Below, in pieces: positions 43,595 through 57,761 of a DNA stretch of 64,000 bases. Under the pieces are notes generated by a model. The model ran no database searches. It was not told the DNA's origin and saw nothing but the letters and a program-made list of their open reading frames with translations. The stretch spans positions 249,873 through 313,872 of the forward strand of contig NZ_QMIE01000002.1 in the NCBI RefSeq assembly GCF_007625075.1, written 5' to 3'. Source of the DNA: Oceanidesulfovibrio indonesiensis. Its GTDB lineage: Bacteria > Desulfobacterota > Desulfovibrionia > Desulfovibrionales > Desulfovibrionaceae. The translations under genes and the position numbers were made by a program. Position 1 is the first letter of the stretch; the number at the start of each line of letters is the position of its first letter.

Positions 43595-44626
43595 CTACTT
43601 GGCGGCCTTGGCGGCCTCGGCAATCCAGCCGTTCCAGGCCTCCTGGTTGGCCTCGATCCATTCGTCCACGTGGCGCTCGATGTCGCGCTGGCTGTCCTCG
43701 CCGTCGAACATCCTGGTGTTCTGCTCGGCGATGTCAAAGAGCGGAATGGACATTATCTCGAACAGCTTCCGGGCAGCCGGGTTCTCAGCGAGGAATTCCT
43801 TGTTCGCGACCACCTGGATGTCGTTGGCCACGAAGCCCATCTTGACGGGGTCGGACACGGCGCCTTCCACGCCGGACATGGTCAGCTGCTCTTCAAAGCC
43901 TTCCTGCGCTTCAGAGGGAATGATTTCCGGGACGTTCATCCACAGTACGTCCTCGCCCGGCTTGAGTTTGAAGATGGTCCAGTTGGGGGCCCAGGTATAG
44001 AAGAAAACGGGCTCGCCGTTGTTGAACCGGGCGATGGCGTCGGCCATGGCGGCAGGGTAGGACGCCTGGATGGCGTTCACGTGGTCTTTCAGTCCGTAGA
44101 CCGCCAGGTGGTGGCTGATGACCTTCTCGCAACCCCAGCCGGGAGGGCAGGCCACGAGATCGGCCTTGCCGTCGCCGTTGGCGTCGAAGGCTTTCTTCAC
44201 TTCCTCGCGCTTGAAGTCGTCCAGGGACTGGATATTGAATTCTTCCACCGCATCCTTGGAGACGAGGTAACCGGAAAGTCCGCCTGCCTTGGCCACATAG
44301 CCCACACGCTCGGCCTTTTCATCGAAGTTGTCGGGCAACTGCGCATAGTGCAGCGGGAACCAGCCGTTGGCCCAGTAGTCAACGTCACCCTGGGTGACGG
44401 CCTGGTAGAAGATCGGATTGGAAAGGTCCTTGGCTTTCTTGACGTCGTAGCCGAGCTCCTTGAGGGCGCGGCTGAAGATTGCTTCCTGGAAAAAGCCGGT
44501 GGTCCAGGTGGCGCGGCCGGGCGTAACGCTTTTGCCTTCGCCGGGTTTGCCGGCGGCAACTGCCGTGCCGGCAAGGCCGAGCACCATGGCGAGCGTAAGC
44601 ATAATCGCGAGAATTCGATTCTTCAT
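43595..44626 (-). CDS. proX: Glycine betaine/proline-betaine binding protein ProX
   Basis: The 343-residue protein has a signal peptide ending near GTAVAAGKP. The mature sequence resembles E. coli ProX closely in layout: TWTTGFFQEAIFSRALKELGY, YWANGWFPLHYAQ, LFD-like AFDANGDGKADL, CPPGWGCEKVI and VFFYTWAPNW. The tryptophans in those segments form the cage for the trimethylammonium group. It delivers glycine betaine in the periplasm to the ProVW complex encoded just upstream, as osmoprotectant or methyl source. A terminator follows. Confidence 0.92.
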   Translation of the reverse strand: MKNRILAIMLTLAMVLGLAGTAVAAGKPGEGKSVTPGRATWTTGFFQEAIFSRALKELGYDVKKAKDLSNPIFYQAVTQGDVDYWANGWFPLHYAQLPDNFDEKAERVGYVAKAGGLSGYLVSKDAVEEFNIQSLDDFKREEVKKAFDANGDGKADLVACPPGWGCEKVISHHLAVYGLKDHVNAIQASYPAAMADAIARFNNGEPVFFYTWAPNWTIFKLKPGEDVLWMNVPEIIPSEAQEGFEEQLTMSGVEGAVSDPVKMGFVANDIQVVANKEFLAENPAARKLFEIMSIPLFDIAEQNTRMFDGEDSQRDIERHVDEWIEANQEAWNGWIAEAAKAAK

Positions 44627-44696
44627 TCATTGACTCCTTGGTTGTCCATTGCGAAACGCAATGTGTTCAACAATGAGGCGTGCCAGTAGAAACCTG

Positions 44697-45545
44697 TTAT
44701 TTCTGCACTTCCTTGCCCATGGACTGGGTGATGCGGTCCAGCACGATAGCCAGCAGCACGATGGCGAGACCGCCGATGCCGGCCAGGCCCACCTGGAGGC
44801 TGTTGAGCCCCTGGAACACCGCAACGCCGAGACCGCCCGCGCCGATGAGCGCGGCGATGACGACCATGGACAGCGACATCATGATGGTCTGGTTGAGGCC
44901 GGCCATGATGGTTGCCTTGGCCAGAGGCAGCTGCACGCGGCGGAGCACCTGCCAGGGCGTGGCGCCGAAGGCCACGGCAGCTTCCACCAGCTCCCGCGGG
45001 GTCTGGCGGATGCCCAGGTTTGTGAGCCGGATGATGGGCGGCATGGCGAAGACGATGGTGGCGATGACGCCGGCCACAGTGCCGATGGAGAAGAGCATGA
45101 CCACGGGAACGAGGTAGACGAACGCCGGCGTTGTCTGCATGGCGTCCAGCACCGGCCGTATGACCTGCTCGAACCGGTCGCTCCGGGCCGCCAGTATGCC
45201 CGTGGGGATGCCCACGATGGTGCAGAAGACCACGGCCGAGAGCACCATGGCCAGGGTGGTCATGGAATCTTCCCACAGCCCCAGAAAGCCGATGAACGTC
45301 ATGGTCACGGCGGTGAACACCCCGAGCTTCCAGCTGGAGACGCGCCATGCGGCCAGAGCCAGCAGAATGATGACCACGATGGGCGGCAGGACGTTGAGAA
45401 ACCAGTCGATGGAGCCGAGGGTCTGCTCAACAGGCCACTTGATGAGCTGGAACTGGCTTCTGTAGTTGGCCACCAGCCAATCCACGACTGTTTCGATCCA
45501 GTCGTCGAGCGGTATGATATAGTCCTCGAAATTCAGTATATTCAT
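44697..45545 (-). CDS. proW: Glycine betaine ABC permease ProW
   Basis: The 282-residue inner-membrane protein has five or six core helices and the permease EAA-like loop LTNLGIRQTPRELVEAAVAFG near residue 175, followed by PWQVLRRVQLPLA that docks to the ATPase. The N-terminal 60 residues (DDWIETVVDWLVANY) are the short amphipathic extension seen in ProW/OpuAB. It forms the channel of the betaine importer with ProV and ProX. It lies 21 bp after proV and 70 bp before proX. Confidence 0.93.
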   Translation of the reverse strand: MNILNFEDYIIPLDDWIETVVDWLVANYRSQFQLIKWPVEQTLGSIDWFLNVLPPIVVIILLALAAWRVSSWKLGVFTAVTMTFIGFLGLWEDSMTTLAMVLSAVVFCTIVGIPTGILAARSDRFEQVIRPVLDAMQTTPAFVYLVPVVMLFSIGTVAGVIATIVFAMPPIIRLTNLGIRQTPRELVEAAVAFGATPWQVLRRVQLPLAKATIMAGLNQTIMMSLSMVVIAALIGAGGLGVAVFQGLNSLQVGLAGIGGLAIVLLAIVLDRITQSMGKEVQK

Positions 45546-45566
45546 GGAGTCGATCTCTTGTGGGGG

Positions 45567-46787
45567 TTACCCTTCGGCCTGGGCCTGCTCGGCCTCCCGC
45601 TGGAGGGTGCGCAGGAATATGTTCTTGGATATCGCGCCCATGTACGCGCCGTTCTCGTTCACAACGGGAACGGGCCAGGGCTTGGATGCGACCTCAACCA
45701 GGATGTCCTGCATGGTCGCCGAGGGCGAAACGGGCGCCACCTCATCCAGGAGCGCACTCTTCAGGCCGCTTTCGCCGGATTCCTCGTTGCCTACGGCTTC
45801 GCGCAGGCTCTCCACGGAGACCGCGCCCAGGTAGCGCTTTTTGGGGTCGAGCACGAAAGCCCAGGTGCGGTCCTGCGAGGTGAGGCGCTCCAGGGCGGCG
45901 CGAGGGCCGAGGCCGTCGCGGCTGATGACCGTAGTCTGCGTGTCGCGCACGATGTCGCCGGCGGTGAGGATGTTCGTGGGGTCCACGCCGCGGAAGAAAG
46001 AGCGCACGTACTCGTCGGCCGGGTTGCGGAGAATCTCTTCGGGCGTGCCCACCTGCACGATGCGACCGCCTTCCATGATTGCGATTCGGTCGCCGATGCG
46101 CATGGCTTCGTCGAGATCGTGGGAGATGAAGACGATGGTGCGCTTGTGCTCCTGCTGGAGATTGAGCAGTTCATCCTGCATTTCGGTGCGGATGAGCGGG
46201 TCCAGCGCGGAGAAGGCCTCGTCCATGAGCATGATTTCCGGGTCCACGGCCAGGCCGCGGGCCAGGCCCACGCGCTGCTGCATGCCGCCGGAAAGTTCTC
46301 TGGGGTAGCTAGAGCCGTATGGTCCGAGCCCCACCTGCTCCAGCGCCTCGGAAGCACGCGTCTCGCGCTCCTCCCTGGGAACGCCGGCCATCTCCAGGCC
46401 GAAAGCCACGTTTTCCAGCACCGTCATGTGCGGCATGAGCGCAAAGGACTGGAAAACCATGGTCATGTTTCGGCGGCGCAGATTCACCAAGGCTTCCTGG
46501 TTCATGTGGGCCACGTCCTCGCCGTCCACATAGACATAGCCTGCCGATGGGTCGATGAGCCGGTTGAGCATGCGCACGAGGGTGGATTTGCCTGAGCCGG
46601 AAAGACCCATGACGACAAAGACTTCACCTTCCATGACAGAGAAACTGGCGTCCTGAACGCCCACCGTCATACCGGTTTTTTCGTGGATGGATTCCTTGTC
46701 GTATCCCTGTTTCAAAAGCTCCAGGGCTTTGCCTGGATCCTTGCCGAATATTTTGTACAGGTTCTTGACGACGATTTTTTCGTTCAT
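45567..46787 (-). CDS. proV: Glycine betaine ABC ATPase ProV with CBS domains
   Basis: The 406-residue protein has the ProV N-terminal segment (IFGKDPGKALELLKQGYDKE), Walker A GLSGSGKST near residue 58, signature LSGGMQQRVGLARGLA, and Walker B ILMDEAFSALDP. Two CBS domains follow at about 285-345 and 345-400. In OpuA-type importers the CBS pair senses ionic strength or c-di-AMP and gates transport. It is the first gene of the proVWX unit. Confidence 0.94.
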   Translation of the reverse strand: MNEKIVVKNLYKIFGKDPGKALELLKQGYDKESIHEKTGMTVGVQDASFSVMEGEVFVVMGLSGSGKSTLVRMLNRLIDPSAGYVYVDGEDVAHMNQEALVNLRRRNMTMVFQSFALMPHMTVLENVAFGLEMAGVPREERETRASEALEQVGLGPYGSSYPRELSGGMQQRVGLARGLAVDPEIMLMDEAFSALDPLIRTEMQDELLNLQQEHKRTIVFISHDLDEAMRIGDRIAIMEGGRIVQVGTPEEILRNPADEYVRSFFRGVDPTNILTAGDIVRDTQTTVISRDGLGPRAALERLTSQDRTWAFVLDPKKRYLGAVSVESLREAVGNEESGESGLKSALLDEVAPVSPSATMQDILVEVASKPWPVPVVNENGAYMGAISKNIFLRTLQREAEQAQAEG

Positions 46788-47295
46788 CGGGCTCTCTTGT
46801 TTTTTGAACGACGCACGGAAACGATTCGTACCGAGAAGGCCCTGACGACCTCCGGCACTCGCCCCGTCGTGCCAGGCAGGAACTACCTGCGCCGCTCAAG
46901 TGGTTCAGTCGGAAAAGCCGGGAGCATCCTTCGGAACGTTTACGGGATCATCGAATCTGCAATGTGCATTGATCGAACGCGGTGCGCGGCGGCCACAGAC
47001 CGTGAAGATGAGCCAGGCCAAATAGTGCGACGCCCAAAAAGGCAGTTCGCGATCCAGAGGTTCCGTTCGCGCGAGGTTCGCTTGCGAATTGTATACGCTT
47101 ACGCATGCGGTACGTTCCGCAGTAGCTCGCGGTCTCGTTTCGAAACCATGCTGATTGATAGATGCATAAAAGTTTTAAGCCCAAACAATTTTGATTCGAA
47201 CTGTTTCTATCAAAATAATTGATTTGTCAAGGCTCTAAGTTGAAATCATTTCGGGCCCCGTATTGCGCGTGCTCTCTGGCGACGAGGAAAAAGAA
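46788..47295. promoter_or_regulatory. Control region upstream of proV
   Basis: This 508-bp region is notably AT-richer than the rest of the window from about 47080 to 47240. It contains a perfect inverted repeat, ATTTTGAT at 47188-47195 and ATCAAAAT at 47209-47216, separated by 13 bp. Because the gene on the other side ends here, the region mainly serves proV. No ORF with a ribosome-binding site is present. Confidence 0.5.
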
Positions 47296-47323
47296 GGCCC
47301 CTGCCGTTGTAGCGGCAGGGGCC
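47296..47323 (-). terminator. Strong terminator after the octahaem cytochrome gene
   Basis: GGCCCCTGCCG at 47296-47306 pairs perfectly with CGGCAGGGGCC at 47313-47323 around a 6-nt loop. Read leftward it is followed by TTCTTTTTCC. It is 26 bp past the stop at 47350. Confidence 0.9.
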
Positions 47324-47349
47324 TGGTCAGATTGTTTTGCGCTGGTCCG

Positions 47350-48801
47350 TTACTGCGGGCCGAATATCTTCACCGGCCTCGTTGTGTCGCCCGTGGCAGC
47401 TGGGAAGTCGGGATAGACGTACGCCTTCTCGCCGGTCTCGATGAGGTGACGCGCCTCTTCCATGAACTGGTTGAAGCGGTGCTTGCATTCATAGAAACCG
47501 TGCCACCAGGCATAGTCCGGCGCCATCATGGCAACACCCATGCGCGCGCGGCGGCCCTCGTGGTGCCAGAGCTCGTAGAACTGGACCTCGAGGTGTTCGT
47601 CAAAGAACTTCTCCGTGCTGAGCAGGCCCTTGTCGTACAACTCGTCGAGCATCGCCTTGGCCGGTTTGTAGTAGACCTCGTTGTATTCCTCCACGGCATT
47701 GTCAAGGCCGTCGTAGTGGTCGTCGGTCCAGGCGTCGGAGTGGCACTGCGAGCAGATCTGCTTCATCTTGTTGCGTTCAGTCTCCCAGTTGGTGTCCGCG
47801 GGGAATGCCGCGAAATCGCTGGGACGCACGGTGAGGGGGGCCTGGGTTTCCCAGGAGAGGCGCTCGGTCACGTCGTGGGTGGTCATCACGCCGCCGGCGC
47901 CGCTCATGTGGCAGGCTGCGCAGGTGGGAGCGCGGTAGTCCACGCCGGGCGTCCAGGTGCCGGGGGCGGCGTCGAAGTTATATTCGTCCCTGTAGGCGTG
48001 GTACATGGTGCCGTGCTTGGACTCTTCGAAGATTTCGATCTGCGGATGGTCCGGACCCAGATGGCACTGGTCGCAGGCTTCGGGCCGGCGCGCCTCTGCC
48101 GTAGAGAAGCGGTGGCGGGTGTGGCAGGAGGTGCAGGAGCCGAGGGAACCGTCAAGGTTCACGCGGCCCACGCCCACATTGGGCCAGGTGTCGGAATCGA
48201 GTCTGCCTTGATCGTCGATCTTGAGCACGGTGCCATGGCAGTTGAAGCAACCGGTCTTACGCTCCATGTCGGAGTTCATGCCGTCGTTGAGCCATGGATC
48301 GATCTTCCACATGATCTCGATGGTGTTGGCGTGCTTGCTCCTGGCGTACTGCTCGGTCTCGTCGGGGTGGCAGCGCGAGCAGTCCTTGGGCGTGACCACG
48401 GTGGCGATGGGCGCGAAGTATTTGCGCTCGCCGTAGGGCAGCTCCGGCCTGTCGTAGTATTTCTCGTGCTGTTTGGCGATGTCCGGATCGTTGGGTTGCG
48501 CCAGGTGACAATCGATGCAGGAAATGTTCGAGTCCGCGTGCTCGGAGCGAGCCCAGTCCGTAAAGATGCCGGGTGTTTCCTGCTTGTGGCATTCGATGCA
48601 CGCCACCGCCTGGGGCGTGAGGCTGCGCTCCACGCGGAACTCCTTCACTACGGAAAAATTCTGTTGCACGGTCTCGACAGGAGCGGGCTGCTGCGTCGTG
48701 TCACCGGTCGCGTTTTCATTCTGCGCAAAGCCGGGGCCAGCTCCTGCAATGGCGAAAGCGAAGACGGCCAGCGCCAGCCAGATCAATGGACGTTTCGACA
48801 T
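47350..48801 (-). CDS. Octahaem cytochrome c, hydroxylamine-oxidoreductase-like (epsilon-Hao type)
   Basis: The 483-residue protein has a signal peptide (MSKRPLIWLALAVFAFAIAG, cleavage near FAQ) and eight CXXCH haem motifs in order: CIECH, CIDCH, CSRCH, CFNCH, CTSCH, CDQCH, CAACH and CSQCH. Size, haem number and C-terminal helical region (EGRRARMGVAMMAPDYAWWHGFYECKH, split) match the hydroxylamine-oxidoreductase family. Pairing with a NapC/NrfH-type gene and the lack of a C-terminal anchor fit the reductive epsilon-Hao group, which reduces nitrite or hydroxylamine to ammonium in the periplasm. Whether the cross-linking Tyr is present cannot be settled without an alignment. ATG 48801 follows GGAGGAG. 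Confidence 0.85.
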   Translation of the reverse strand: MSKRPLIWLALAVFAFAIAGAGPGFAQNENATGDTTQQPAPVETVQQNFSVVKEFRVERSLTPQAVACIECHKQETPGIFTDWARSEHADSNISCIDCHLAQPNDPDIAKQHEKYYDRPELPYGERKYFAPIATVVTPKDCSRCHPDETEQYARSKHANTIEIMWKIDPWLNDGMNSDMERKTGCFNCHGTVLKIDDQGRLDSDTWPNVGVGRVNLDGSLGSCTSCHTRHRFSTAEARRPEACDQCHLGPDHPQIEIFEESKHGTMYHAYRDEYNFDAAPGTWTPGVDYRAPTCAACHMSGAGGVMTTHDVTERLSWETQAPLTVRPSDFAAFPADTNWETERNKMKQICSQCHSDAWTDDHYDGLDNAVEEYNEVYYKPAKAMLDELYDKGLLSTEKFFDEHLEVQFYELWHHEGRRARMGVAMMAPDYAWWHGFYECKHRFNQFMEEARHLIETGEKAYVYPDFPAATGDTTRPVKIFGPQ

Positions 48802-48839
48802 GGACCTCTCTCCTCCCGGGTTTTCGATTGATCTCGTAC

Positions 48840-49433
48840 TCATGTTCCGCTGCCCACGGACGGCAATGTGCGCAGACCCTTGGCGCGGTATGGCAACTCC
48901 CGCATCTGCGAGTACTCGACCATACGCTTGTCCGTATGGACCAGGTCGTAATGGCAGTCGATGCACTTGCGTTCCGGCGCTCCGGGCCGGGGGTTGATGA
49001 CTGCCCGGTGCGCGCGCATGGCGCCGCGGTCGTGCGGCATGAACATGACGTTTTCGTGGCACTTCATGCAGGTTTCGTTATCCAGAGACGCGTACATCCC
49101 CTCACGCGCCGCCTGTCTGTCGTAGCCTTCGGGGCCGTCCAGAATGTGGAAGGCCACGTCCTTGAGGCCGTGGTATGTCTTCATCGTGAAGAATTCGAAT
49201 GTGTTTTCGGGCGGGGGCAGGTGGCAGTCCATGCAGTCGGCCACCAGGCCGCGTTTGTTGTTGACGTGGGACGAGGCGCGCCACGCGTCGACGGCGGGTT
49301 TGATTTCGTGGCACGAGCCGCAGAAGGCGGGCGTGGACGTGACGACCATGGCCTCATAGGTCGCAGCCAGGAGCGGCAGCGCGATGAGCATGCCGATGAC
49401 GATGAGCGCGACAGGCCTGAAAAACCGCTTCAT
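48840..49433 (-). CDS. NapC/NirT/NrfH-family tetrahaem cytochrome c
   Basis: The 197-residue protein has one N-terminal membrane anchor (FRPVALIVIGMLIALPLLAA) and four CXXCH motifs: CGSCH, CMDCH, CMKCH and CIDCH. This is the layout of NapC/NrfH quinol dehydrogenases, which oxidise menaquinol and pass electrons to a periplasmic reductase. Its gene lies 38 bp before the octahaem cytochrome gene, so that protein is the clear electron acceptor. ATG 49433 starts just before the anchor; the frame runs 23 codons further up without protein-like content. Confidence 0.92.
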   Translation of the reverse strand: MKRFFRPVALIVIGMLIALPLLAATYEAMVVTSTPAFCGSCHEIKPAVDAWRASSHVNNKRGLVADCMDCHLPPPENTFEFFTMKTYHGLKDVAFHILDGPEGYDRQAAREGMYASLDNETCMKCHENVMFMPHDRGAMRAHRAVINPRPGAPERKCIDCHYDLVHTDKRMVEYSQMRELPYRAKGLRTLPSVGSGT

Positions 49434-49511
49434 CCGCAAGGGAGCCTCCGGGGTTGGAGATTTACGAATATATGCAGAATAGCAGTTCGATATACACAGC
49501 AAAGGGGATAA

Positions 49512-50354
49512 TTATGCCCCGCGTTCTGGCACAACGCGACAGAGACAACTGACGAGGTAGGAAGTCATGGGTCGGCCGCGCATATTGTAGCGCAGAAGCG
49601 CCTCAGCCAGATACAGCGGGTAGGCCTCGGGCTTGATTGCCCGGAACTGGGCCAGCCAGCCGTCCACGAAGGACTTCAGGTCGTTTACCCGGTCCAGGTG
49701 CAGCAGTTCTTCGGTGAAATGCCTGGAGAACAGGTCGCGGCCTTTCTTGCAGCAGGCGAACACGAGCGCGTCGCGGCCCTGGTAAGTATCTGTATGGATG
49801 AAGCAACGCCACTGCTTCTTGGGCAGGGGCCAGGCAAGCACGTCGCGCGCTTTTGCGCCAGGCATCAAGGATAGCAGAATCCGTCCGCCAGTGGACGCGA
49901 GCTGGAATACATAGGAGCGGCAGCCGTCGCACAGCGTCTGCAGCTCCTCGCGGTCCAGGTTCGGGCAGAAGCCCATGAGCTCCCCGCGTTTGTCGAAAAG
50001 ATCATCGAACCCGCACATGTCGGCAAGGATGGCGGAACGGATGGTGCCGTACGCCCTGTGCGCGGTGTCATATTTCACCCCCAGAACCCGGGCGGCCTGG
50101 TTTACGTTAAGGCCATCTTCGAAGCAGCGCAGGAGAACAGCCCACGATTCCAGCGGCATGTGACCGCGGTTGATCCATCGGCGCGAGAGGGCGTGGAACG
50201 TATACCCGCAATCGCGGCATCGGTTTCGGCCATCCTTGAGGGAATAAACTCTGGAGCACTCGCAGCGAGGGCACCCCGTGCCGTGCTCCCTGCACGAGCG
50301 TTCGATGATCCGGCGGAAGTCGATTGCGTTGCTGCTCGTTGTATCCGGCATCAT
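49512..50354 (-). CDS. Zinc-ribbon/HTH protein resembling a domesticated IS1595-type transposase
   Basis: The 280-residue protein has an N-terminal zinc ribbon (C28, C31, C46, C49; GCPRCECSRVY and NRCRDCGYTFHALS) and a helix-turn-helix (LNVNQAARVLGVKYDTAHRAY near 80-100), as in IS1595/ISXO2-type transposases. The rest follows the same family: FIHTDTYQGRDALV holds a counterpart of the second catalytic Asp. LKSFVDGWLAQFRAI and ALLRYNMRGRP match the region that normally reads ESFW...RFNHR, with Lys where the catalytic Glu should be. No terminal inverted repeats were seen. Loss of the active site and its position inside the cytochrome gene cluster suggest a regulator derived from a transposase. 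Confidence 0.7.
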   Translation of the reverse strand: MMPDTTSSNAIDFRRIIERSCREHGTGCPRCECSRVYSLKDGRNRCRDCGYTFHALSRRWINRGHMPLESWAVLLRCFEDGLNVNQAARVLGVKYDTAHRAYGTIRSAILADMCGFDDLFDKRGELMGFCPNLDREELQTLCDGCRSYVFQLASTGGRILLSLMPGAKARDVLAWPLPKKQWRCFIHTDTYQGRDALVFACCKKGRDLFSRHFTEELLHLDRVNDLKSFVDGWLAQFRAIKPEAYPLYLAEALLRYNMRGRPMTSYLVSCLCRVVPERGA

Positions 50355-50444
50355 TCATCCTTGTGTGGTGTGCGAATGATCCCTCTGTACATTCTGGCTC
50401 ATTTCCGTGCAGGCGGCTCTGGTATCTTTCAGGCAGAAGAAAAT

Positions 50445-51782
50445 TCAGACCCTCGCAACCGCCAGGAACGCCGCGTGCAGGCCGATCACCAGCGCGAGGT
50501 ACGCGCCCCGCGCCGCAGCAGGATTTACCCGCAGGCCGGGAATGTCCAGCCTGTAGCCCATGCTCCCCTGCCGGCATGAGGGCACGCAGTCCCCGCATAG
50601 AGTGCAGGACAGGCCCGGCTTGCCGCGTGCGATATCCGTGGGTTCCAGCGCGCCATAACGGCAGGACCGTGCGCACTTGCCGCACTGGGTGCAGCTGTCG
50701 TCCATGCGCATGCGCCAGGGGGCAAGCTTACCGATGCAGTTCGCAACCAGTCCCATGGGGCAGTACGCCGTACAGTGGATCATGCTGCCGCGGCGCCTGG
50801 AGAGAAAAATCATGACGGCCACGCCGCCCAGACCGAACAACGCGGCGAGTGCCAGAGCCACGGGCCAGCTGACACCCGCGAGGCGCAGGCCCACGGCGAG
50901 CAAGATGGTGAGCGAGAGGCTGACGATGCGCCCGATCCACAGCCAGCGCCCGGCGCTCTGCGGGCGGCTGGTCTTCTTTGAGCCGAACCGGGAGGCCAGG
51001 TCGTCCCATGCGCCCACGTAGCACAGGTGACTGCACCAGGCTGGTCCGGCCAGGATGACCGTGCCCAGGAAGAGAAACACCATGAAGGACATCTCCAGCC
51101 GGTAGAGCGGTCCGCCGATGATGAGCGCCGGCACGGGCAGGTGCAGCGAGCCGGTCATGAGGAAGCGCTCCGAGACCGTGAGTCCGAGCGCGAGCTGGAG
51201 GAAGAACACTGCGGAAAAGAAGGCCCAGAGCCGCGGCCGGGCCATGCGGTGGGCGTTGGGATCGATGACCAGGCCGGCGAGCCAGGCGGCGTAGACGCCA
51301 TGGAGGAATATCTGCAGGCCGCCCCAGCTCCAGGCGCCGAAAAACCGATCGGAAAGCAGGATGGGGAAGCCGACCTTGTTCCGGGCTATGAGCAGAACGA
51401 CAGCAGTCACGATGAACGCGGCGGCCTGGTATGGGGCGCGTTCGCTGCTCGCGTCGTATCGTTTCCGTGCCCGCGCTCCTGTCAGCACGGCCATTGCGAC
51501 GAAATTCACGGCCATGACCGAGCCCATGATGATCGCCAGCCGCGTCCAGTCGTCGGCCATGGCCATGCGCATGCGCACGAGCAGGAGGGCGGTCTGCGCC
51601 CAGGTGAAAATCCCCCAGAGCAACGCGGCCGCGGCTACGTGGCGGACCCAGCCCAGCCTGGTCCACACCAGGCCGGCGAGCACGAGAAAGGCGACGGTGA
51701 TGCCGACCTCGCCGTAGCGAAGATGATGCGCCGCCAGCAACACCAGCGAAAGACAGGGGAGGGCTGGCAGCAGGCGGTTCAT
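50445..51782 (-). CDS. NapH-like membrane ferredoxin (polyferredoxin)
   Basis: The 445-residue protein has about eleven membrane helices, with NapH/CcoG-like CXXXC signatures CSHLCYVG near 255 and CTAYCPMG near 340 facing the inside. Two [4Fe-4S] motifs, CTQCGKCARSC and CTLCGDCVPSC, lie near 365-410. A final helix closes it. NapH proteins pass electrons between quinol and periplasmic reductases. It overlaps the truncated sulfite-reductase-like gene by 4 bp and precedes the transposase-like gene by 90 bp. It probably belongs to the electron route of the Hao module, though direct evidence is lacking. Confidence 0.85.
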   Translation of the reverse strand: MNRLLPALPCLSLVLLAAHHLRYGEVGITVAFLVLAGLVWTRLGWVRHVAAAALLWGIFTWAQTALLLVRMRMAMADDWTRLAIIMGSVMAVNFVAMAVLTGARARKRYDASSERAPYQAAAFIVTAVVLLIARNKVGFPILLSDRFFGAWSWGGLQIFLHGVYAAWLAGLVIDPNAHRMARPRLWAFFSAVFFLQLALGLTVSERFLMTGSLHLPVPALIIGGPLYRLEMSFMVFLFLGTVILAGPAWCSHLCYVGAWDDLASRFGSKKTSRPQSAGRWLWIGRIVSLSLTILLAVGLRLAGVSWPVALALAALFGLGGVAVMIFLSRRRGSMIHCTAYCPMGLVANCIGKLAPWRMRMDDSCTQCGKCARSCRYGALEPTDIARGKPGLSCTLCGDCVPSCRQGSMGYRLDIPGLRVNPAAARGAYLALVIGLHAAFLAVARV

Positions 51783-52474
51783 GCCGCATCGCTCCGTGCG
51801 CAGGGAGCCATGGAAGCCGGATCGCCCTTGTCGCGCACCACGCCGAGCAGGCGGTGCAGGCCGATGCGTTCCACCACGTCCGCGAAACGGCTGCCGGGCT
51901 CGTAGCCGGCCATGTACACGGTCAGCCAGCCGGCCACACGCTCCGGCAGCGCTTCAGGATCGACAAACCCGGGCAGTTCCACGGCAAGGCGGGGCCGGCG
52001 ACCCAGCTTGCCACCCAGCAGGAAGCGGCACCCGGACTCGGTAACCCGCATGGAGCCTTCCGGGCAGGCCGCCACGCACTTGCCGCAGGCGAGGCAGGCC
52101 TTTGCATCGAGCACCGGGCGACCGGCCACGTCCAGTTCGAGGGCGTCGTCCGGGCAGGCTTCAACACAGGCGCCGCATCCGGAGCACGAAGCCGGCGGCG
52201 CCGGCCGTTCGGAAAAGATCACGCCGATATCGGCGATGTGCGGCCGGGAGCAGCCGTTGGCGCAGGCGGCAACGGAGATCCGGAACATCTCGTGGTGCCT
52301 CGGCGGGCGTGGCGCGCAGGCGGAAACAAGAAACGCCGGCCAGCCGGAAGACTCCGCCGCTCCGGCGATGGCGTCTGCAAGTTCGTCCGGCACGGGCAGC
52401 GCATGGGGGCATTGCCCGGTGCGCGCGCCGCGACACAACTCGATATGATGTGTGCTCGGTGGTTGCGTGCTCAT
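51779..52474 (-). CDS. Truncated sulfite/nitrite-reductase-like dicluster ferredoxin
   Basis: The 231-residue protein matches the second half of small sulfite reductases: ISVAACANGCSRPHIADIGVI near residue 66-86 with the CX3C pair (C71, C75). A dicluster ferredoxin insert follows (C97, C100, C103, C107 and C127, C130, C133, C137), then FLLGGKLGRRPRLAVELPGF and a terminal helical region. The first CX5C pair that completes the siroheme-coupled cluster in real reductases is absent, so it probably lacks sirohaem and works in electron transfer. It heads the leftward cluster with NapH-like and cytochrome genes. Confidence 0.75.
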   Translation of the reverse strand: MSTQPPSTHHIELCRGARTGQCPHALPVPDELADAIAGAAESSGWPAFLVSACAPRPPRHHEMFRISVAACANGCSRPHIADIGVIFSERPAPPASCSGCGACVEACPDDALELDVAGRPVLDAKACLACGKCVAACPEGSMRVTESGCRFLLGGKLGRRPRLAVELPGFVDPEALPERVAGWLTVYMAGYEPGSRFADVVERIGLHRLLGVVRDKGDPASMAPCARSDAA

Positions 52475-52740
52475 GGGTGCATCCTGCCATGTGTTTTCCG
52501 GGAAATTCCTTGATGCATGTCAATTTCGCATGTCCGAACCTGCGTCTGAAGCAATGGCGCAATTGGGGATTGATCGGGTGGGAATTTACAAGCCCGGCAT
52601 GTGCCACTATAGTCCCTCCTGCCCATGTGCGCCAATGCTATGGCGCCGAATATGCGATGCATGTACGCGGAGCAGGCTCGCGCTCCGCTGTCGTTCCGAC
52701 GTGCAAAGCGGCATGCATCCGCGCTGGAGTGCCGAATCCC
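52475..52740. promoter_or_regulatory. Divergent control region of the cytochrome cluster and AraC gene
   Basis: This 266-bp region separates the leftward redox cluster and the rightward AraC gene and should hold both promoters. I see no clear palindrome of FNR or NarL type. Confidence 0.4.
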
Positions 52741-53646
52741 ATGAAGTTTCATTTTCCCGAAGAACTGGCCAGCCCTTCCGAGCTTGTACGCGCACTGGGC
52801 GCCGTCCCCCGGGAGACCTGGGCGACGCGAAAGTATCCGCATTTGTACGCCGCACCGTTGCGTGCGGATGCGCGCACCAATACGATCGTGCTGCCCGGCT
52901 GCACCTGGCCGTTCATCGTGGTGAACGTGGGCGAGCCATACACGCTGCGCTACACCGATCCCATGAAATGTCAAAACGAATGCAGCATGGAGACCAACTT
53001 CGTGCATCTCATCCCGGCGGGGCAGGCCGGGGTGTTCGAAATCTCCAACATCAGGGACAAGACGGCCCAGCGCATCGTCCTGGCTATGGACCCGGAATGG
53101 CTGCGTCGTTTCGTGCTGGACCATACCGGCAACCTGGACGTGGGCAACATGACGTTCTTCCTGGGGCGCGATGAAAGAACCCTCGCCACGGCAGTCGTCG
53201 CCCTGTACCGGGCGCTGCAGGAACCACAGCCGATGAGCAGCCTGTTCGTGGATTCCGCTGCGCAGTTCATCGCCGCATCGGTGCTGCGCGATTACTGCAA
53301 TCTCGATGAGCAACCTCTTTCATCCGTTGCGCCGCGGCGGCGCCTGAAGAGCGTCTTGGATTACATCCACGAGAACTTTGCGGCCGACATCCAGCTGGGC
53401 GAATTGGCGGACGAGGCCGGCCTCTCGCCATTCCACTTCAGTCGCGTGTTCAAGGAAGCCACCGGCATATCGCCGCGCCAGTACGTGATCAAACTCCGCA
53501 TGGACGAAGCGTGCCGGCTGCTCAAGGAAACCAGGCTCGACGTCCTCGAGATTTCCTCCTGCGTGGGCTATGAAAGCGTGAGCCACTTCTCCAGCCTGTT
53601 CAAACGCCATGTGGGCATAAGCCCGGCGGCATACCGCAAGGCGTAG
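52741..53646 (+). CDS. AraC-family transcriptional regulator
   Basis: The 301-residue protein has an N-terminal beta-rich sensor domain (TIVLPGCTWPFIVVNVGEPYTL split over two strands) and a C-terminal AraC DNA-binding domain with two helix-turn-helix units: IQLGELADEAGLSPFHFSRVFKE near 225 and VLEISSCVGYESVSHFSSLFKRH near 275. It is divergent from the sulfite-reductase-like/NapH/Hao cluster and the likely activator of it. The sensor part contains a CQNEC pair that might bind metal or respond to nitrosative stress; that is speculation. GGAG lies 11 nt before the ATG. Confidence 0.87.
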   Translation: MKFHFPEELASPSELVRALGAVPRETWATRKYPHLYAAPLRADARTNTIVLPGCTWPFIVVNVGEPYTLRYTDPMKCQNECSMETNFVHLIPAGQAGVFEISNIRDKTAQRIVLAMDPEWLRRFVLDHTGNLDVGNMTFFLGRDERTLATAVVALYRALQEPQPMSSLFVDSAAQFIAASVLRDYCNLDEQPLSSVAPRRRLKSVLDYIHENFAADIQLGELADEAGLSPFHFSRVFKEATGISPRQYVIKLRMDEACRLLKETRLDVLEISSCVGYESVSHFSSLFKRHVGISPAAYRKA

Positions 53647-53695: not shown

Positions 53696-54826
53696 TTAAT
53701 AAATCCGATGACGAAAGAGCCAGCCGGCAGCTGCGAGGTTGCACGCCCCGATGATCGCCAGCGGCCAGATCTGATTTGCAAGCAGGGCGAATGATGCGCC
53801 TTCGATGAACACCCCGCGCAGCAGCACGAAGATATAGCGCAACGGGTTTATGACGGTGAGGTGCTGCACGACCGGCGCCATGTTCTCGATGGGCGTGGCG
53901 AAGCCGGAGAGCAGAGTCGCCGGCATCATGAACAGAAACGTCCCGAGCAATGCCTGCTGCATCGTCTTTGCCAGGGATGAGATCATCAGGCCGATGCCCA
54001 CGGCGGCGAAAATGAATGCGACGAGGCCCGCGTACAGTGTGGCGAGGCTGCCGCGCAACGGAATTTCGAACCAGAACAACGCGATGCAGAGGATGAGCGT
54101 TGCTTCCAGGACGCCGATGATGAGCCCGGGCAAGGCCTTGCCTATGAGTATTTCCGTGGGCGGCATCGGCGTGACAAGGAGTTGGTCGAACGTGCCGTGT
54201 TCGCGTTCCCGCGCCACGGACAAAGACGTCACGAGCAGGGTCACCAGCAGGGCGATGAGTCCCACCAGCCCCGGAATGAAGAACCAGCGGCTCAGCAGGT
54301 TCTCGTTGAACCAGTGGCGCACAACGAGCACGGACGGCCCCGCGGCGAGCTGCCGCTCTGAGGAGTCCATGCGTTCCAGCAGGGCCAGGTTGTAGTTCTG
54401 CACCACGCCGGTCAGATAGTTGGCCACGATGGAGGCCGTGTTTGAGTTGCGGCCGTCCAGTATGGCCTGCATCGTTGCCGGGTTGCCCGCCCTGAGCTGT
54501 CGCGCGAAGTCCTCGCGGATCATCACCACCAGTTTTACTTTTCCGGCGTCCACGAGTTCGGCGATCTCCCCGTGCCGGTGGATGTGCCCGATAAGCGTGA
54601 AGTTCTTGGAGCCCTCCAGCCCGGCGAGCAACTCCCGGGATTCCACGCTGCGGCTCTGGTCGTACACGGCGTAAGGTATCTCGCGCAGATCGAAGGTGGC
54701 GGCATAGCCGAACAGGATGGTCTGGATGATGGGCGGAAACATGACCACGGTGCGCGAACGCGGATCCTTGAGCAGGGCCAGGAATTCCTTGACCATGAGG
54801 GCGAGAATGCGGCGGATGCTGTCCAT
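53696..54826 (-). CDS. ybhR: ABC-2-type export permease YbhR
   Basis: The 376-residue protein has one N-terminal helix (about 22-42), a periplasmic domain and five C-terminal helices, as in ABC-2 exporters. The sequence follows E. coli YbhR closely: ILDGRNSNTASIVANYL, SLSVAREREHGTFDQLLVTP, FMMPATLLSGFATPIENM and VINPLRYIFVLLRGVF. It pairs with YbhS to form the membrane channel of a four-part exporter. ATG 54826 follows a GGAG/GAGG stretch; the frame continues 234 codons upstream in shadow of ybhS and is rejected. The gap to ybhS is 5 bp. Confidence 0.92.
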   Translation of the reverse strand: MDSIRRILALMVKEFLALLKDPRSRTVVMFPPIIQTILFGYAATFDLREIPYAVYDQSRSVESRELLAGLEGSKNFTLIGHIHRHGEIAELVDAGKVKLVVMIREDFARQLRAGNPATMQAILDGRNSNTASIVANYLTGVVQNYNLALLERMDSSERQLAAGPSVLVVRHWFNENLLSRWFFIPGLVGLIALLVTLLVTSLSVAREREHGTFDQLLVTPMPPTEILIGKALPGLIIGVLEATLILCIALFWFEIPLRGSLATLYAGLVAFIFAAVGIGLMISSLAKTMQQALLGTFLFMMPATLLSGFATPIENMAPVVQHLTVINPLRYIFVLLRGVFIEGASFALLANQIWPLAIIGACNLAAAGWLFRHRIY

Positions 54827-54831
54827 GATCC

Positions 54832-55962
54832 TCACTCCAGGCTCTTGCGTGTTTTTTTGAACGCCAGCATCAGGAAGAAGAAGGCGAGCACGGCCATGGC
54901 CGCGCCATTCGGCACGAGCACGGACCAGACGTTGCCGGCCAGGAAGATGGACTGCACGACGGCCACGAAGTATCGCGCCGGCACGATGTGCGAGACCACG
55001 CGGATGGCCGTGGGGGCGCTGGAAAGTTCGAAAATGAAGCCGGACAGGAAGAACGCGGGCAAAAAGGCTGTGATGAGCGATGTCTGTCCCGCTACGAACT
55101 GATTCTTGGCCATGGCGGAGATGAACAGCCCGAGCCCGAGCATGGCGAACATGAACACGGATGAGAGCAGGGCGAGCATGGCCAGCGAGCCGCGGAAGGG
55201 CACGTCGAAAAGAAAGAACGACATGACCACACAGAGCACCATGCCCATCATGCCCAGCACAAAGTAGGGGATGAGTTTGCCGAGCACGATCTCCGGCACG
55301 GACACCGGCGTCACGAGCAGCGCCTCCATGGTGCCGCGCTCCCATTCCCGCGCCATGACCATGGCCGTGAGCAGAGTGCCCGTAAGCGTCATCACCAGGA
55401 CGACGATCCCAGGCACCAGAAAGTTCTGGCTGCGCACCTCGCTGTTGAACCAGTAGCGCGGCGCAACCTCCACGATGGGCGGCGGCGCCCCCTGAAGCGC
55501 CGCCTGAGACTGTGTCCAGCGCTGCCACGCGCCTGTGACGTAGCCTTCGATCTGCCGCGCGCGGTTTGCATCCACGGCGTCCACGATCAGCTGGATGGGA
55601 GCCATGCGGCCGGCCGCGAGCTCACGCGAGAAGTTCGACCGGATGCGCAAAATGGCGTCCACTTCCCGTTTGCGCAATAACGTTTCGGCCTGATTGAAGT
55701 CGTTCATGGGCACGGGAGCGAAGTAGTCCGAGATGGTGAAGCGCGCGGCCAGGTCCACGGCCTCGGGACTTGGATGCTCCAGCACCACGGCGATGGGGAT
55801 CTGCCGCGGATCGAGGCTGATGCCGTAGCCGAAGAGCAAAAGCAGCACCACGGGGAGCACCAGGGCGATGGCGATGGAGGAAGGATCGCGCACGATCTGG
55901 TACGTCTCCTTGCGCACCAGGGCCCGGAGCCGGCGCGGGGAGATGGTGCGCGGACGCGCCAC
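54832..55962 (-). CDS. ybhS: ABC-2-type export permease YbhS
   Basis: The 376-residue protein is the partner permease. It matches YbhS in ALVRKETYQIVRDPSSIAIA at the N-terminus, MVMAREWERGTMEALLVTP near 210, GKLIPYFVLGMMGMV and FLPAFFLSGFIFELSSAPTAI. Topology is one helix, a periplasmic domain and five helices. It lies 2 bp after the ATPase gene. In E. coli the YbhFSR complex exports drugs such as tetracycline and has been linked to Na+/Li+ export; the same range here is inferred. Confidence 0.92.
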   Translation of the reverse strand: MARPRTISPRRLRALVRKETYQIVRDPSSIAIALVLPVVLLLLFGYGISLDPRQIPIAVVLEHPSPEAVDLAARFTISDYFAPVPMNDFNQAETLLRKREVDAILRIRSNFSRELAAGRMAPIQLIVDAVDANRARQIEGYVTGAWQRWTQSQAALQGAPPPIVEVAPRYWFNSEVRSQNFLVPGIVVLVMTLTGTLLTAMVMAREWERGTMEALLVTPVSVPEIVLGKLIPYFVLGMMGMVLCVVMSFFLFDVPFRGSLAMLALLSSVFMFAMLGLGLFISAMAKNQFVAGQTSLITAFLPAFFLSGFIFELSSAPTAIRVVSHIVPARYFVAVVQSIFLAGNVWSVLVPNGAAMAVLAFFFLMLAFKKTRKSLE

Positions 55963-55964
55963 GG

Positions 55965-57761
55965 CTACGCCGCCTCCCGTGTTTCGCGGTGCTTCTCAAC
56001 CAGAGCGATAAACGCGCTTTCGATGTCCGCGGTCTCGCCTTCCACCTTTGGCGCATGTCCGCGAATCTCGTCCGGCGTGCCCAGGGCCAGCAGCTCGCCG
56101 GCCATCATGATCAGCATGCGGTCGCAGTATTCGGCCTCTTCCATGAAATGCGTGGTCACGATGATGGTGACGCCCTCGTCCGCCAGGGCGGAGATGCGCT
56201 GCCAGAACTCCCGGCGCGCCAGAGGGTCCACGCCGGACGTGGGCTCGTCGAGAAAGAGGATGTCCGGCTCGTGCATCAGCGCGCAGGCCAGGGCGAGCCG
56301 CTGCTTGAAACCGAACGGCAGTTCTCCGCTGGTGGAGTCGGCCTCGGGTGCGAGGTCCAGGCTTTCCAGGGCCCACTGCACACGCCGGCGTTGGCGCTTT
56401 CCATACAGGCCGTAGGCCCGGCTGAAGAATTCGAGGTTCTCGCGCACCGAAAGCTGTCCGTAGAGCGAGAATTTCTGCGCCATGTAGCCCACCCGCCGGC
56501 GCGCCCTGGCCGCGGCAGTGCGCAGGTCCTCGCCCGCTACTTCCAGCCGGCCGCCCGTGGCCGGGAGCAGGCCGCACAGCATGCGGAAGGTGGTGGACTT
56601 GCCCGCGCCGTTGGGGCCGAGCAGGCCGAAGATCTCGCCGCGCGACACCGTGAAGTCCAGGTCCTTCACCGCGTAGAAGTCTCCGAACCTGCGTTCCAGG
56701 TTCTCCACAGCGATGATCTGACCATTGCCGTTGCCGGCGGCGCGACGGTTTTCCGACCCTGTCGAAGCGGTCGATTCGTCTTCGGTCATGGAGAACCCGG
56801 CTCCCTCCACCCGTCGCTTCTCCAGCAGGACCATGAAGCCGTCCTCGAAGTGCGGGGTGGCCGGCTCGTACGACATGTCGCGGAACAGGGAGTTTGGTTC
56901 GGCGTCTTGCGCAACCACCACGCGCACGCGGCCCTGCCGCAGGGTGGCGTCCACCACGCCGTCCGCGCCGAAAAGCCGGCTCTGCACGTGCCGGGGCAGG
57001 TAGTCGCCGGAGCCCACGGCAAAGACCCGGCCGGATGCCGTGTCCACGAATTCCTGCGGCGCGCCGGTGCCGAGCAGTACGCCGTCCAGCAGCACGAAGA
57101 CCTGGTCGCAGCGTTCGGCTTCGTCCAGGTAGGCGGTGGATACGAGCACGGTGATGTCCTCCTCGCGCACGAGGTCGTCCACGATGCGCCAGAGTTCGCG
57201 GCGGGAGAGTGGGTCCACGCCCACCGTGGGTTCGTCCAGCAACAACAGCTGCGGCGTCTTGATGAGCGAGCAGGCCAGGCCCAGCTTCTGCTTCATGCCG
57301 CCGGAGAGCCTGCCGGCCAGGCGAGAGGTGAACGGCTCGAGGCCGGTCATGTCCAGCAGGCGGGGGTACTGGCGTTTGCGTTCGGACATGGGCACGGATT
57401 GCAGGTCGGCGTAAAGGTCCATGTTCTCGCGGACCGAAAGATCCTCATACAGGCCGAATCGCTGGGGCATGTAGCCGATGGCGGCCTGAATCTCCCGCGC
57501 ATCCCTGACCGAATCCAGACCGAGCACGGTGATGGAGCCTGAGTCCGGCCTAAGCAGGCCGGAGGCCATGCGCATGAGGGTGGTCTTGCCGGCGCCGTCC
57601 GGCCCCAGAAGCCCGTTCACCGAACCGGGTGCAACGGAGAAGGAGACGTCGTCCAGCGCAAGGATGTCCCGCTTGCCGCGCATGAAATGCTTGCTCACTC
57701 CGGACACGGCGAAGGCATGCGCGCCGTCGGCCTTGCTCGTTTGTGCGGTCTCCTGCGTCAC
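55965..57761 (-). CDS. ybhF: Twin-cassette export ATPase YbhF
   Basis: The 598-residue protein has two full ABC domains. The first has Walker A GPDGAGKTT near residue 55, signature LSGGMKQKLGLACSL and Walker B LLLLDEPTVGVDP. The second has GPNGAGKST near 390, a changed signature (ELPFGFKQRLALACAL, with PFG where SGG is usual) and ILFLDEPTSGVDP. It drives the YbhSR permeases. The altered second signature is common in YbhF-type proteins. Its start overlaps the ybhG stop by 4 bp. Confidence 0.92.
   Translation of the reverse strand: MTQETAQTSKADGAHAFAVSGVSKHFMRGKRDILALDDVSFSVAPGSVNGLLGPDGAGKTTLMRMASGLLRPDSGSITVLGLDSVRDAREIQAAIGYMPQRFGLYEDLSVRENMDLYADLQSVPMSERKRQYPRLLDMTGLEPFTSRLAGRLSGGMKQKLGLACSLIKTPQLLLLDEPTVGVDPLSRRELWRIVDDLVREEDITVLVSTAYLDEAERCDQVFVLLDGVLLGTGAPQEFVDTASGRVFAVGSGDYLPRHVQSRLFGADGVVDATLRQGRVRVVVAQDAEPNSLFRDMSYEPATPHFEDGFMVLLEKRRVEGAGFSMTEDESTASTGSENRRAAGNGNGQIIAVENLERRFGDFYAVKDLDFTVSRGEIFGLLGPNGAGKSTTFRMLCGLLPATGGRLEVAGEDLRTAAARARRRVGYMAQKFSLYGQLSVRENLEFFSRAYGLYGKRQRRRVQWALESLDLAPEADSTSGELPFGFKQRLALACALMHEPDILFLDEPTSGVDPLARREFWQRISALADEGVTIIVTTHFMEEAEYCDRMLIMMAGELLALGTPDEIRGHAPKVEGETADIESAFIALVEKHRETREAA

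Follow-up and report, generated by a model that had tools for sequence, protein, structure and literature searches.

What does a run of minus-strand genes of Oceanidesulfovibrio indonesiensis (contig NZ_QMIE01000002.1) do, in which an octahaem cytochrome of the hydroxylamine oxidoreductase type (Hao) and its putative tetrahaem quinol dehydrogenase (a NapC/NrfH-like protein; gene napC) share one direction with a NapH-like membrane ferredoxin and a dicluster ferredoxin built from half of a sulfite reductase domain (gene sir)? An initial annotation of the 64,000-nt stretch analysed here (the window) had noticed these genes together with a divergent AraC-family regulator, and had proposed a nitrite or hydroxylamine reduction or nitrosative-stress module with a second electron-entry path. 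Open reading frames (ORFs), profiles and motifs confirmed every named feature (Table 1), but the five-gene list had passed over a 280-aa transposase-like protein (tnp, or tnpR) between napH and napC. Our results suggest that the run is probably a five-gene operon, sir-napH-tnpR-napC-hao, within an HcpR-type nitrosative-stress and nitrite-ammonification regulon. The proposed kind of module gained support from neighbourhoods with hcp, frdX and nrfA, from a shared palindrome and from a candidate CRP/FNR protein.

The genes are arranged for transcription in the order sir, napH, tnp, napC and hao. The reading frames of sir and napH share 4 nt, and the spacers between napH and tnp, tnp and napC, and napC and hao are 90, 78 and 38 nt long (the hao start was set at 48801; the listed 570-aa ORF runs over into napC). 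A scan of these three spacers on the minus strand found no terminator-like site in them, and the strong one comes only after hao. All five genes stand between a single palindrome and a single terminator; this layout was counted towards joint regulation of both halves, and the genes would be transcribed together. The complete order, including the AraC gene, is also present in G010, the sole other member of the genus among 199 genomes of the family, and the full five-gene order was found only in this genus.

The palindrome, TTGAY-N4-RTCAA (TTGAYNNNNRTCAA), has a single exact copy in the window, upstream of sir, which departs in one base of the second half-site from the strict TTGAC-N4-GTCAA and qualifies as an HcpR-type site. 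It is kept in G010 amid an otherwise diverged spacer. An exact copy is carried by 16 of 100 shuffles of the window, and since the pattern was written after seeing the sir site, that site alone is no evidence; the tests are other loci, permuted controls and the genome. In 101 loci (1.78 Mb), 61 of the 79 exact palindromes lay upstream of module genes, in regions making up 8% of the sequence, where 6.4 were expected; the genomes are related and the sites are not fully independent, and the figure is an undercount where the longest ORF overruns the real start (for example, L194). As the upstream regions are slightly A+T-richer (G+C content 0.553 versus 0.581), the eleven other palindromes that arise when the arm letters are permuted were run as controls, and together they gave 5 of 59 sites upstream (4.8 expected). 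One-mismatch FNR-like sites fell upstream in 49 of 223 cases, with 18.1 expected.

The source assembly (4.29 Mb) contains seven exact copies, compared with three for the backwards pattern. Four of the seven precede the present operon, hcp (C6), frdX (C8) and a module-type cupin gene (C11), and these targets were confirmed by module profiles (263, 768, 288 and 124 bits, respectively), the families of which had been defined from other genomes before the source genome was scanned; two of the seven have no obvious partner gene. In relatives whose halves lie apart, an exact palindrome stands upstream of sir/napH (for example, L220, L221, L227, L228, L300 and L301), and napC/nrfH genes without tnp have an exact copy of their own in 6 of 35 cases (L115, L121, L131, L132, L208 and L209). 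In seven of the nine loci of the tnp clade described below (the nitrite clade), an exact site precedes the run; this count includes L194, where the site lies inside an overlong tnp ORF about 40 nt upstream of the likely start. Between tnp and napC/nrfH, no separate site at up to one mismatch was found for any of the ten tnp-linked genes. Separate, unrelated regulation of the two halves, which the initial annotation had held would refute a common module, was not seen; that the same palindrome precedes sir/napH at some loci and napC at others speaks against it. The remaining exact copy of the source genome lies about 100 nt upstream of an iron-containing alcohol dehydrogenase gene (L306, G000:C5:47661).

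A candidate for the protein acting at these sites is a CRP/FNR protein encoded at C11:64227, with the recognition helix GATPETLSRAL (Pro-Glu). According to PMC1274295 (this and the other papers cited by accession are drawn on in excerpt), the HcpR motif TTGACnnnnGTCAA of delta-proteobacteria other than Desulfovibrio precedes hcp and frdX and goes with a Ser or Pro residue (position 180) in the recognition helix, and nrfHA belongs to the HcpR regulons of Desulfuromonas/Geobacter. Compared by eye with this excerpt, the C11:64227 protein fits an HcpR of motif TTGACnnnnGTCAA.

Hao and its partner belong to their families by profile and haem motifs. Hao scored 118.2 bits against PF13447 (cut-off 21.9) and has the eight CxxCH of an octahaem Hao/HAO, and the NapC/NrfH-like protein, with four CxxCH, scored 120.5 bits against PF03264 (cut-off 24.1) and fell below both of the specific curated models for NapC and NrfH. 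The nearest solved structures of Hao are 4qo5, 1fgj/4fas/6m0p and 6h5l, among which we take 4qo5 and 6h5l to be reductive-type proteins. Matches to Hao were obtained in 64 of the 199 family genomes, 39 of these at at least 64% identity, and identity to counterparts in sulfate reducers is about 63-80%. From 173 Hao relatives we kept a sample of 80 loci in named genomes, with Desulfo- or delta-proteobacterial titles and a few that read only Proteobacteria. The napC gene adjoins hao in 78 of these 80, a gene order beyond chance, and in the remaining two hao lies at a contig end. Two more Hao relatives (about 41-42% identity) are encoded in the source genome away from the operon, at G000:C13:83954-84871 and G000:C3:51739-52356.

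The direction in which Hao works is suggested by Met425 and Trp433, which are invariant in all 21 aligned members. In Hao of the Campylobacterota type, Trp replaces the cross-link Tyr and a Met lies eight residues earlier (PMC8940962); a C-terminal profile of Hao gave only chance matches against PDB, and the equivalence of Trp433 with the cross-link Tyr was taken from that paper. A reductive HAO is predicted for the large majority of bacteria outside the anammox group (PMC12758564). The Met-x7-Trp signature and these predictions make it likely that Hao is a nitrite, hydroxylamine or nitric oxide (NO) reductase; at the sequence level, both marks of the reductive-type epsilon-Hao of the reverse hydroxylamine:ubiquinone redox module (reverse HURM) were found, the signature and a NapC-type partner. 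We consider it improbable that Hao is a true HAO, oxidising hydroxylamine, or acts as a reductase of a sulfur compound rather than of nitrite, although it shares its family and the D-H pair with oxidative HAO, one His-to-Tyr transition has been placed inside Desulfobacterota (PMC12758564) and the HAO of Desulfofaba is described as oxidative (PMC10116758). Against this stand not only the signature in place of the cross-link Tyr and the predicted prevalence of the reductive form, but also the slot of napC-hao, which is the same as that of nrfHA, and the palindrome that it shares with hcp and frdX.

The remaining parts of the run recur in other combinations. Forty hao loci drawn from 38 genomes, leaving out a second Hao type of about 45% identity, contain napC (39), napH (8), frdX (8), tnp (8), cupin (6), sir (5), hcp (4), hsir (4) and AraC (2) genes, where hsir denotes a small NIR_SIR protein of about 216 aa with both half-domains. 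Fifteen of the 40 have one or more members of the set hcp, frdX, sir, napH, hsir and cupin, and L114 and L207 have the order hcp-napC-hao-frdX. For the 80 named loci, iterated profiles at 200 bits or more gave napH in six and sir in six, with both only in L064 (Desulfonauticus sp.); labels at about 30-90 bits, mostly Fer4 cross-matches, were dropped. The 57 sampled napH loci (17 chosen by hand from different genera and 40 taken roughly in list order, excluding contig ends and loci already retrieved for hao or tnp) contain frdX in 34, sir in 31, hcp in 22, cupin in 21 and hsir in 15, and hcp, frdX or nrfA in 37. The hcp, frdX, sir, napH, hsir, cupin and napC-hao parts resemble a toolkit for N-oxide reduction whose pieces have been reshuffled. 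The conserved neighbourhood that the initial annotation had named as a check is borne out in parts, by a near-universal napC-hao pair and by napH/sir recurring near hcp/frdX, nrfHA or hao, whereas the full order is confined to the genus. In L217, L219, L265, L268-L270, L274, L276 and L288, small NIR_SIR proteins with two half-domains are encoded as tandem pairs behind napH-frdX-cupin.

The NapH-like protein shares the CxxCxxC pairs of NapH but reached only 36.3 bits against the 213-bit cut-off of TIGR02163, and is thus not a curated NapH. It is family-wide, with matches in 183 of the 199 genomes, compared with the 64 for Hao, although the weakest of the 183 cover ferredoxin domains only. The sir product covers positions 48-151 of the 158 in PF01077 and has, like dissimilatory sulfite reductase, the C-x3-C half of the NIR_SIR 4Fe-4S domain, but it lacks the sirohaem half-domain (no PF03460 match up to E 0.1) and, at 52 of 324 bits on the curated model, falls outside the sulfite reductases. 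The second electron input into Hao that had been proposed for this pair is consistent with the union of napH/sir and hao in one gene run, in the window and in G010, and other nitrate systems use NapGH for a quinol route. It nevertheless appears unlikely: the NapH-like protein is distributed far beyond Hao and is commoner with Hcp/FrdX, as the 37 of 57 napH loci with hcp, frdX or nrfA illustrate, napH is present in only 8 of the 40 hao loci, and the sir product, in which no export signal is visible by eye (no prediction tool was run), would be cytoplasmic and Hao periplasmic. It is more likely that NapH-Sir serves cytoplasmic Hcp rather than Hao.

Matches to tnp were found in 132 of the 199 family genomes, with true IS1595 elements as the weakest. 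Beyond the family tnp is rare: of 395 genomes of the phylum, nine matched at E 1e-12, six of them from the family itself, and the 80 named loci gave no match. In a tree of 32 tnp-like members and 11 insertion sequence rows (one element entered twice), the window protein fell into a nine-member clade with a FastTree support of 1.0. All nine members of this nitrite clade are encoded directly upstream of a cytochrome pair, which is napC-hao in six (the window, G010, G068, G031, G070 and G037) and nrfHA in three (G016, G043 and G089); the count leaves out L125, where tnp is 3.5 kb from hao, and L119, which is split and belongs to the formate-dehydrogenase-type clade. The three NrfA proteins behind tnp have CxxCK and four CxxCH and scored 419-505 bits against PF02335, and the three NrfH proteins scored 113, 114 and 151 bits (cut-off 134). 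The sister clade (22 sampled) adjoins an fdnG-type gene in 19 cases and moaA in 14, as judged by sequence clustering. In three fdnG examples the ORF ends at TGA, and a selenocysteine reading best matches formate dehydrogenase-N alpha (the fragments scored 530-621 bits; the 814-bit cut-off applies to the whole protein). The moaA assignment was checked in two examples. The source genome has a second domesticated IS1595-like protein (L002, G000:C8:4600-5391) between moaA and a TGA-containing gene of the formate-dehydrogenase-N type whose product is exported by twin-arginine translocation, an arrangement common in the family.

The catalytic D-D-N triad is intact in all 11 true IS1595 rows, whereas its first Asp and third Asn are absent from all 31 tnp-like proteins; the second Asp is retained in 3 of 9 nitrite-clade and 20 of 22 sister-clade members. 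The zinc-ribbon cysteines (C28/C31/C46/C49) are retained in 31 of 31, and all nine nitrite-clade members have Cys at positions 130, 142, 145, 201 and 202 of the window protein, where Cys occurs no more than singly in the sister clade. The nonsynonymous (dN) and synonymous (dS) divergences of tnp from its G010 counterpart are 0.177 and 0.88 (dN/dS about 0.20), a ratio equal to that of napH and near those of napC and hao. No repeats of at least 12 nt flank tnp within 49300-50600, the sole inverted pair being internal to the gene, and the source genome has no second nitrite-clade copy, only relatives at 30% and 23% identity being listed. The triad, the family score (33.6 of 75 bits), terminal repeats and several copies expected of an active IS1595 transposase are therefore wanting. 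The fixed slot, lost triad residues, purifying selection and absence of terminal repeats indicate that tnp, as read from its sequence, is a domesticated, catalytically dead IS1595 relative.

It is very improbable that tnp is an ordinary or decaying insertion sequence lying in the operon by chance. Such an origin would agree with its weak matches to the IS1595 zinc-ribbon and DDE models, with a true IS1595-type transposase gene elsewhere in the same genome, and with the relative in G045 that adjoins napC-hao and is broken into two ORFs, but all nine sampled clade members occupy the same slot, identity is 73% within the genus and 35-48% across genera, neither terminal inverted repeats nor a second clade copy was found, the frame is open despite the lost residues, and selection is similar to that on the neighbouring genes. 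The conserved slot and dead catalysis largely refute a chance insertion. The broken relative (L119, G045:C1:373-1148) belongs to the sister clade, and its split suggests independent recruitment and decay.

A domesticated tnp is probably a regulator of nitrite-reducing enzymes. Another role on DNA, or a role in binding RNA or protein, is rather unlikely; no target site of tnp was identified, and a zinc ribbon with a helix-turn-helix (HTH) is compatible with other functions, but the position directly upstream of respiratory operons in nine of nine cases, and, for most of the sampled sister clade, next to fdnG-type or moaA genes, argues for transcription regulation. The cysteines may bind a metal centre, possibly making tnp a metal-sensing regulator. 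Quite tentatively, the former transposase could be a dedicated sensor-regulator of ammonifying nitrite reductases, in which the five Cys in the dead pocket would bind a metal centre, iron-sulfur or another, that senses NO, nitrite or the redox state; the regulator would control whichever of NrfHA or NapC-Hao follows, and the paralogous clade would control periplasmic formate dehydrogenase. A search of solved structures with tnp returned antibody chance matches only.

Several observations weigh against the operon and regulon proposed here. The palindrome lies 35 nt from sir, compared with about 75-90 nt at hcp, frdX and cupin, and this short spacing departs from the standard activator arrangement. 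An exact site is missing before 29 of the 35 tnp-less napC/nrfH genes and before the runs of L122 and L215, two of the nine nitrite-clade loci. The CRP-like motif TGTGA-N6-TCACA is also enriched, about threefold, in the same upstream regions (exact, 1 of 2 with 0.2 expected; one mismatch, 7 of 26 with 2.1; two mismatches, 80 of 375 with 30.5), although this is much less than the enrichment of the FNR-like palindrome. No NCBIfam model names the C11:64227 protein HcpR (the best is FtrB, 118 of 211 bits), so that the label depends on the helix aligned by eye to CRP. None of hcp, frdX and nrfA is present in 20 of the 57 napH loci, and no tnp adjoins 33 of the 40 hao loci. The AlphaFold2 models were too poor, with a predicted local distance difference test score (pLDDT) of 51 for Hao (21 sequences) and 44 for tnp (single sequence), the latter for testing whether its Cys cluster. 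The source genome also encodes nrfA (C13:17740) with an adjoining NrfH-like ORF; Hao therefore need not be the chief nitrite reductase, and may serve detoxification or another N-oxide.

We propose that NO or nitrite stress would act through the HcpR-type CRP/FNR protein, encoded elsewhere, on the palindrome before sir. NapC would hand menaquinol electrons to periplasmic Hao, which would reduce nitrite, hydroxylamine or NO towards ammonium in the periplasm. NapH and the sir-like ferredoxin would carry electrons from quinol to the cytoplasmic side, where Hcp/FrdX are their most likely users; hcp and frdX bear the same palindrome at other sites of the genome. As a DNA-binding regulator, tnpR would tune the nitrite-reductase pair behind it.

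Table 1. Features of the sir-napH-tnp-napC-hao run and its borders (positions in the window).
Feature	Position	Strand	Remarks
sir, 231-aa dicluster ferredoxin	51779-52474	-	second half of NIR_SIR domain
NapH-like membrane ferredoxin, 445 aa	50445-51782	-	two C-terminal CxxCxxC motifs
IS1595-transposase-like protein (tnp/tnpR), 280 aa	49512-50354	-	weak zinc-ribbon, HTH and IS1595-transposase profile matches
NapC/NrfH-type tetrahaem quinol dehydrogenase, 197 aa	48840-49433	-	four CxxCH
Octahaem Hao, 483 aa	47350-48801	-	eight CxxCH, D251-H252 pair, Met425-x7-Trp433 signature
Intrinsic terminator-like hairpin 3' of hao	47295-47324	-	12-bp stem, T tract
HcpR/FNR-type palindrome	52510-52523	minus-strand reading TTGAC-ATGC-ATCAA	35 nt upstream of sir start
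Divergent AraC-family regulator	52741-53646	+	kept only within genus; association uncertain

The AraC gene, which the initial annotation had included in the module, is found near hao in 2 of the 40 hao loci, both from the same genus, and in none of the 80 named loci; being confined to the genus, it was placed outside the conserved unit. Past it on the minus strand (53696-57761), the ORF list alone suggests two permeases of ABC-type exporters and an ATPase with two fused domains. Glycine betaine/proline ABC transporter genes of the proVWX type (43595-46787) follow the operon directly, on the far side of the terminator.

In the open-licence literature (subscription journals were largely outside the scope), as far as the excerpts extend, we found no description of the five-gene order, of hao in an HcpR regulon, or of regulators of IS1595 origin that act on nrfHA, hao or formate dehydrogenase. 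The present analysis places a sulfate-reducer Hao in a concrete predicted nitrosative-stress regulon and gives a functional context to the widespread NapH/sir-like ferredoxin pair, for which we found no described role in the same literature. It further provides a clear example, from bacteria, of a DDE transposase that was domesticated and probably became a regulator of respiration, an idea made testable by the two nitrite-reductase pairs that alternate in the same slot.

The NapC-Hao pairing, Hcp/FrdX and HcpR are already known. Hao/NapC pairs of sulfate reducers share the napC-hao arrangement and are known as HAO annotations (PMC10116758, PMC12758564); the excerpts of these papers do not describe the operon context seen here. 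IS1595-family transposases are similar to tnp in zinc-ribbon, HTH and DDE-domain matches, all weak, and differ in that tnp lacks the D-D-N triad, has a fixed slot and has gained five new invariant Cys. The delta-proteobacterial HcpR regulon has the FNR-like palindrome and the targets hcp and frdX in common with the present one, but hao, sir-napH, the cupin gene and the transposase-like gene are not named as targets in the excerpt of PMC1274295, which gives a CRP-like motif for Desulfovibrio HcpR, unlike the palindrome here. The reverse HURM/epsilon-Hao of Nautilia and Campylobacter likewise combines an octahaem Hao without the cross-link Tyr and a NapC/NrfH-type tetrahaem partner, and NapGH and Hcp belong to that pathway too (PMC3701875). 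According to the same excerpt, haoA (1280) and cycB (0559) have distant locus numbers there and NapH is that of the nitrate reductase, whereas here the genes lie in one run, together with a sir-like ferredoxin and a transposase-like gene.

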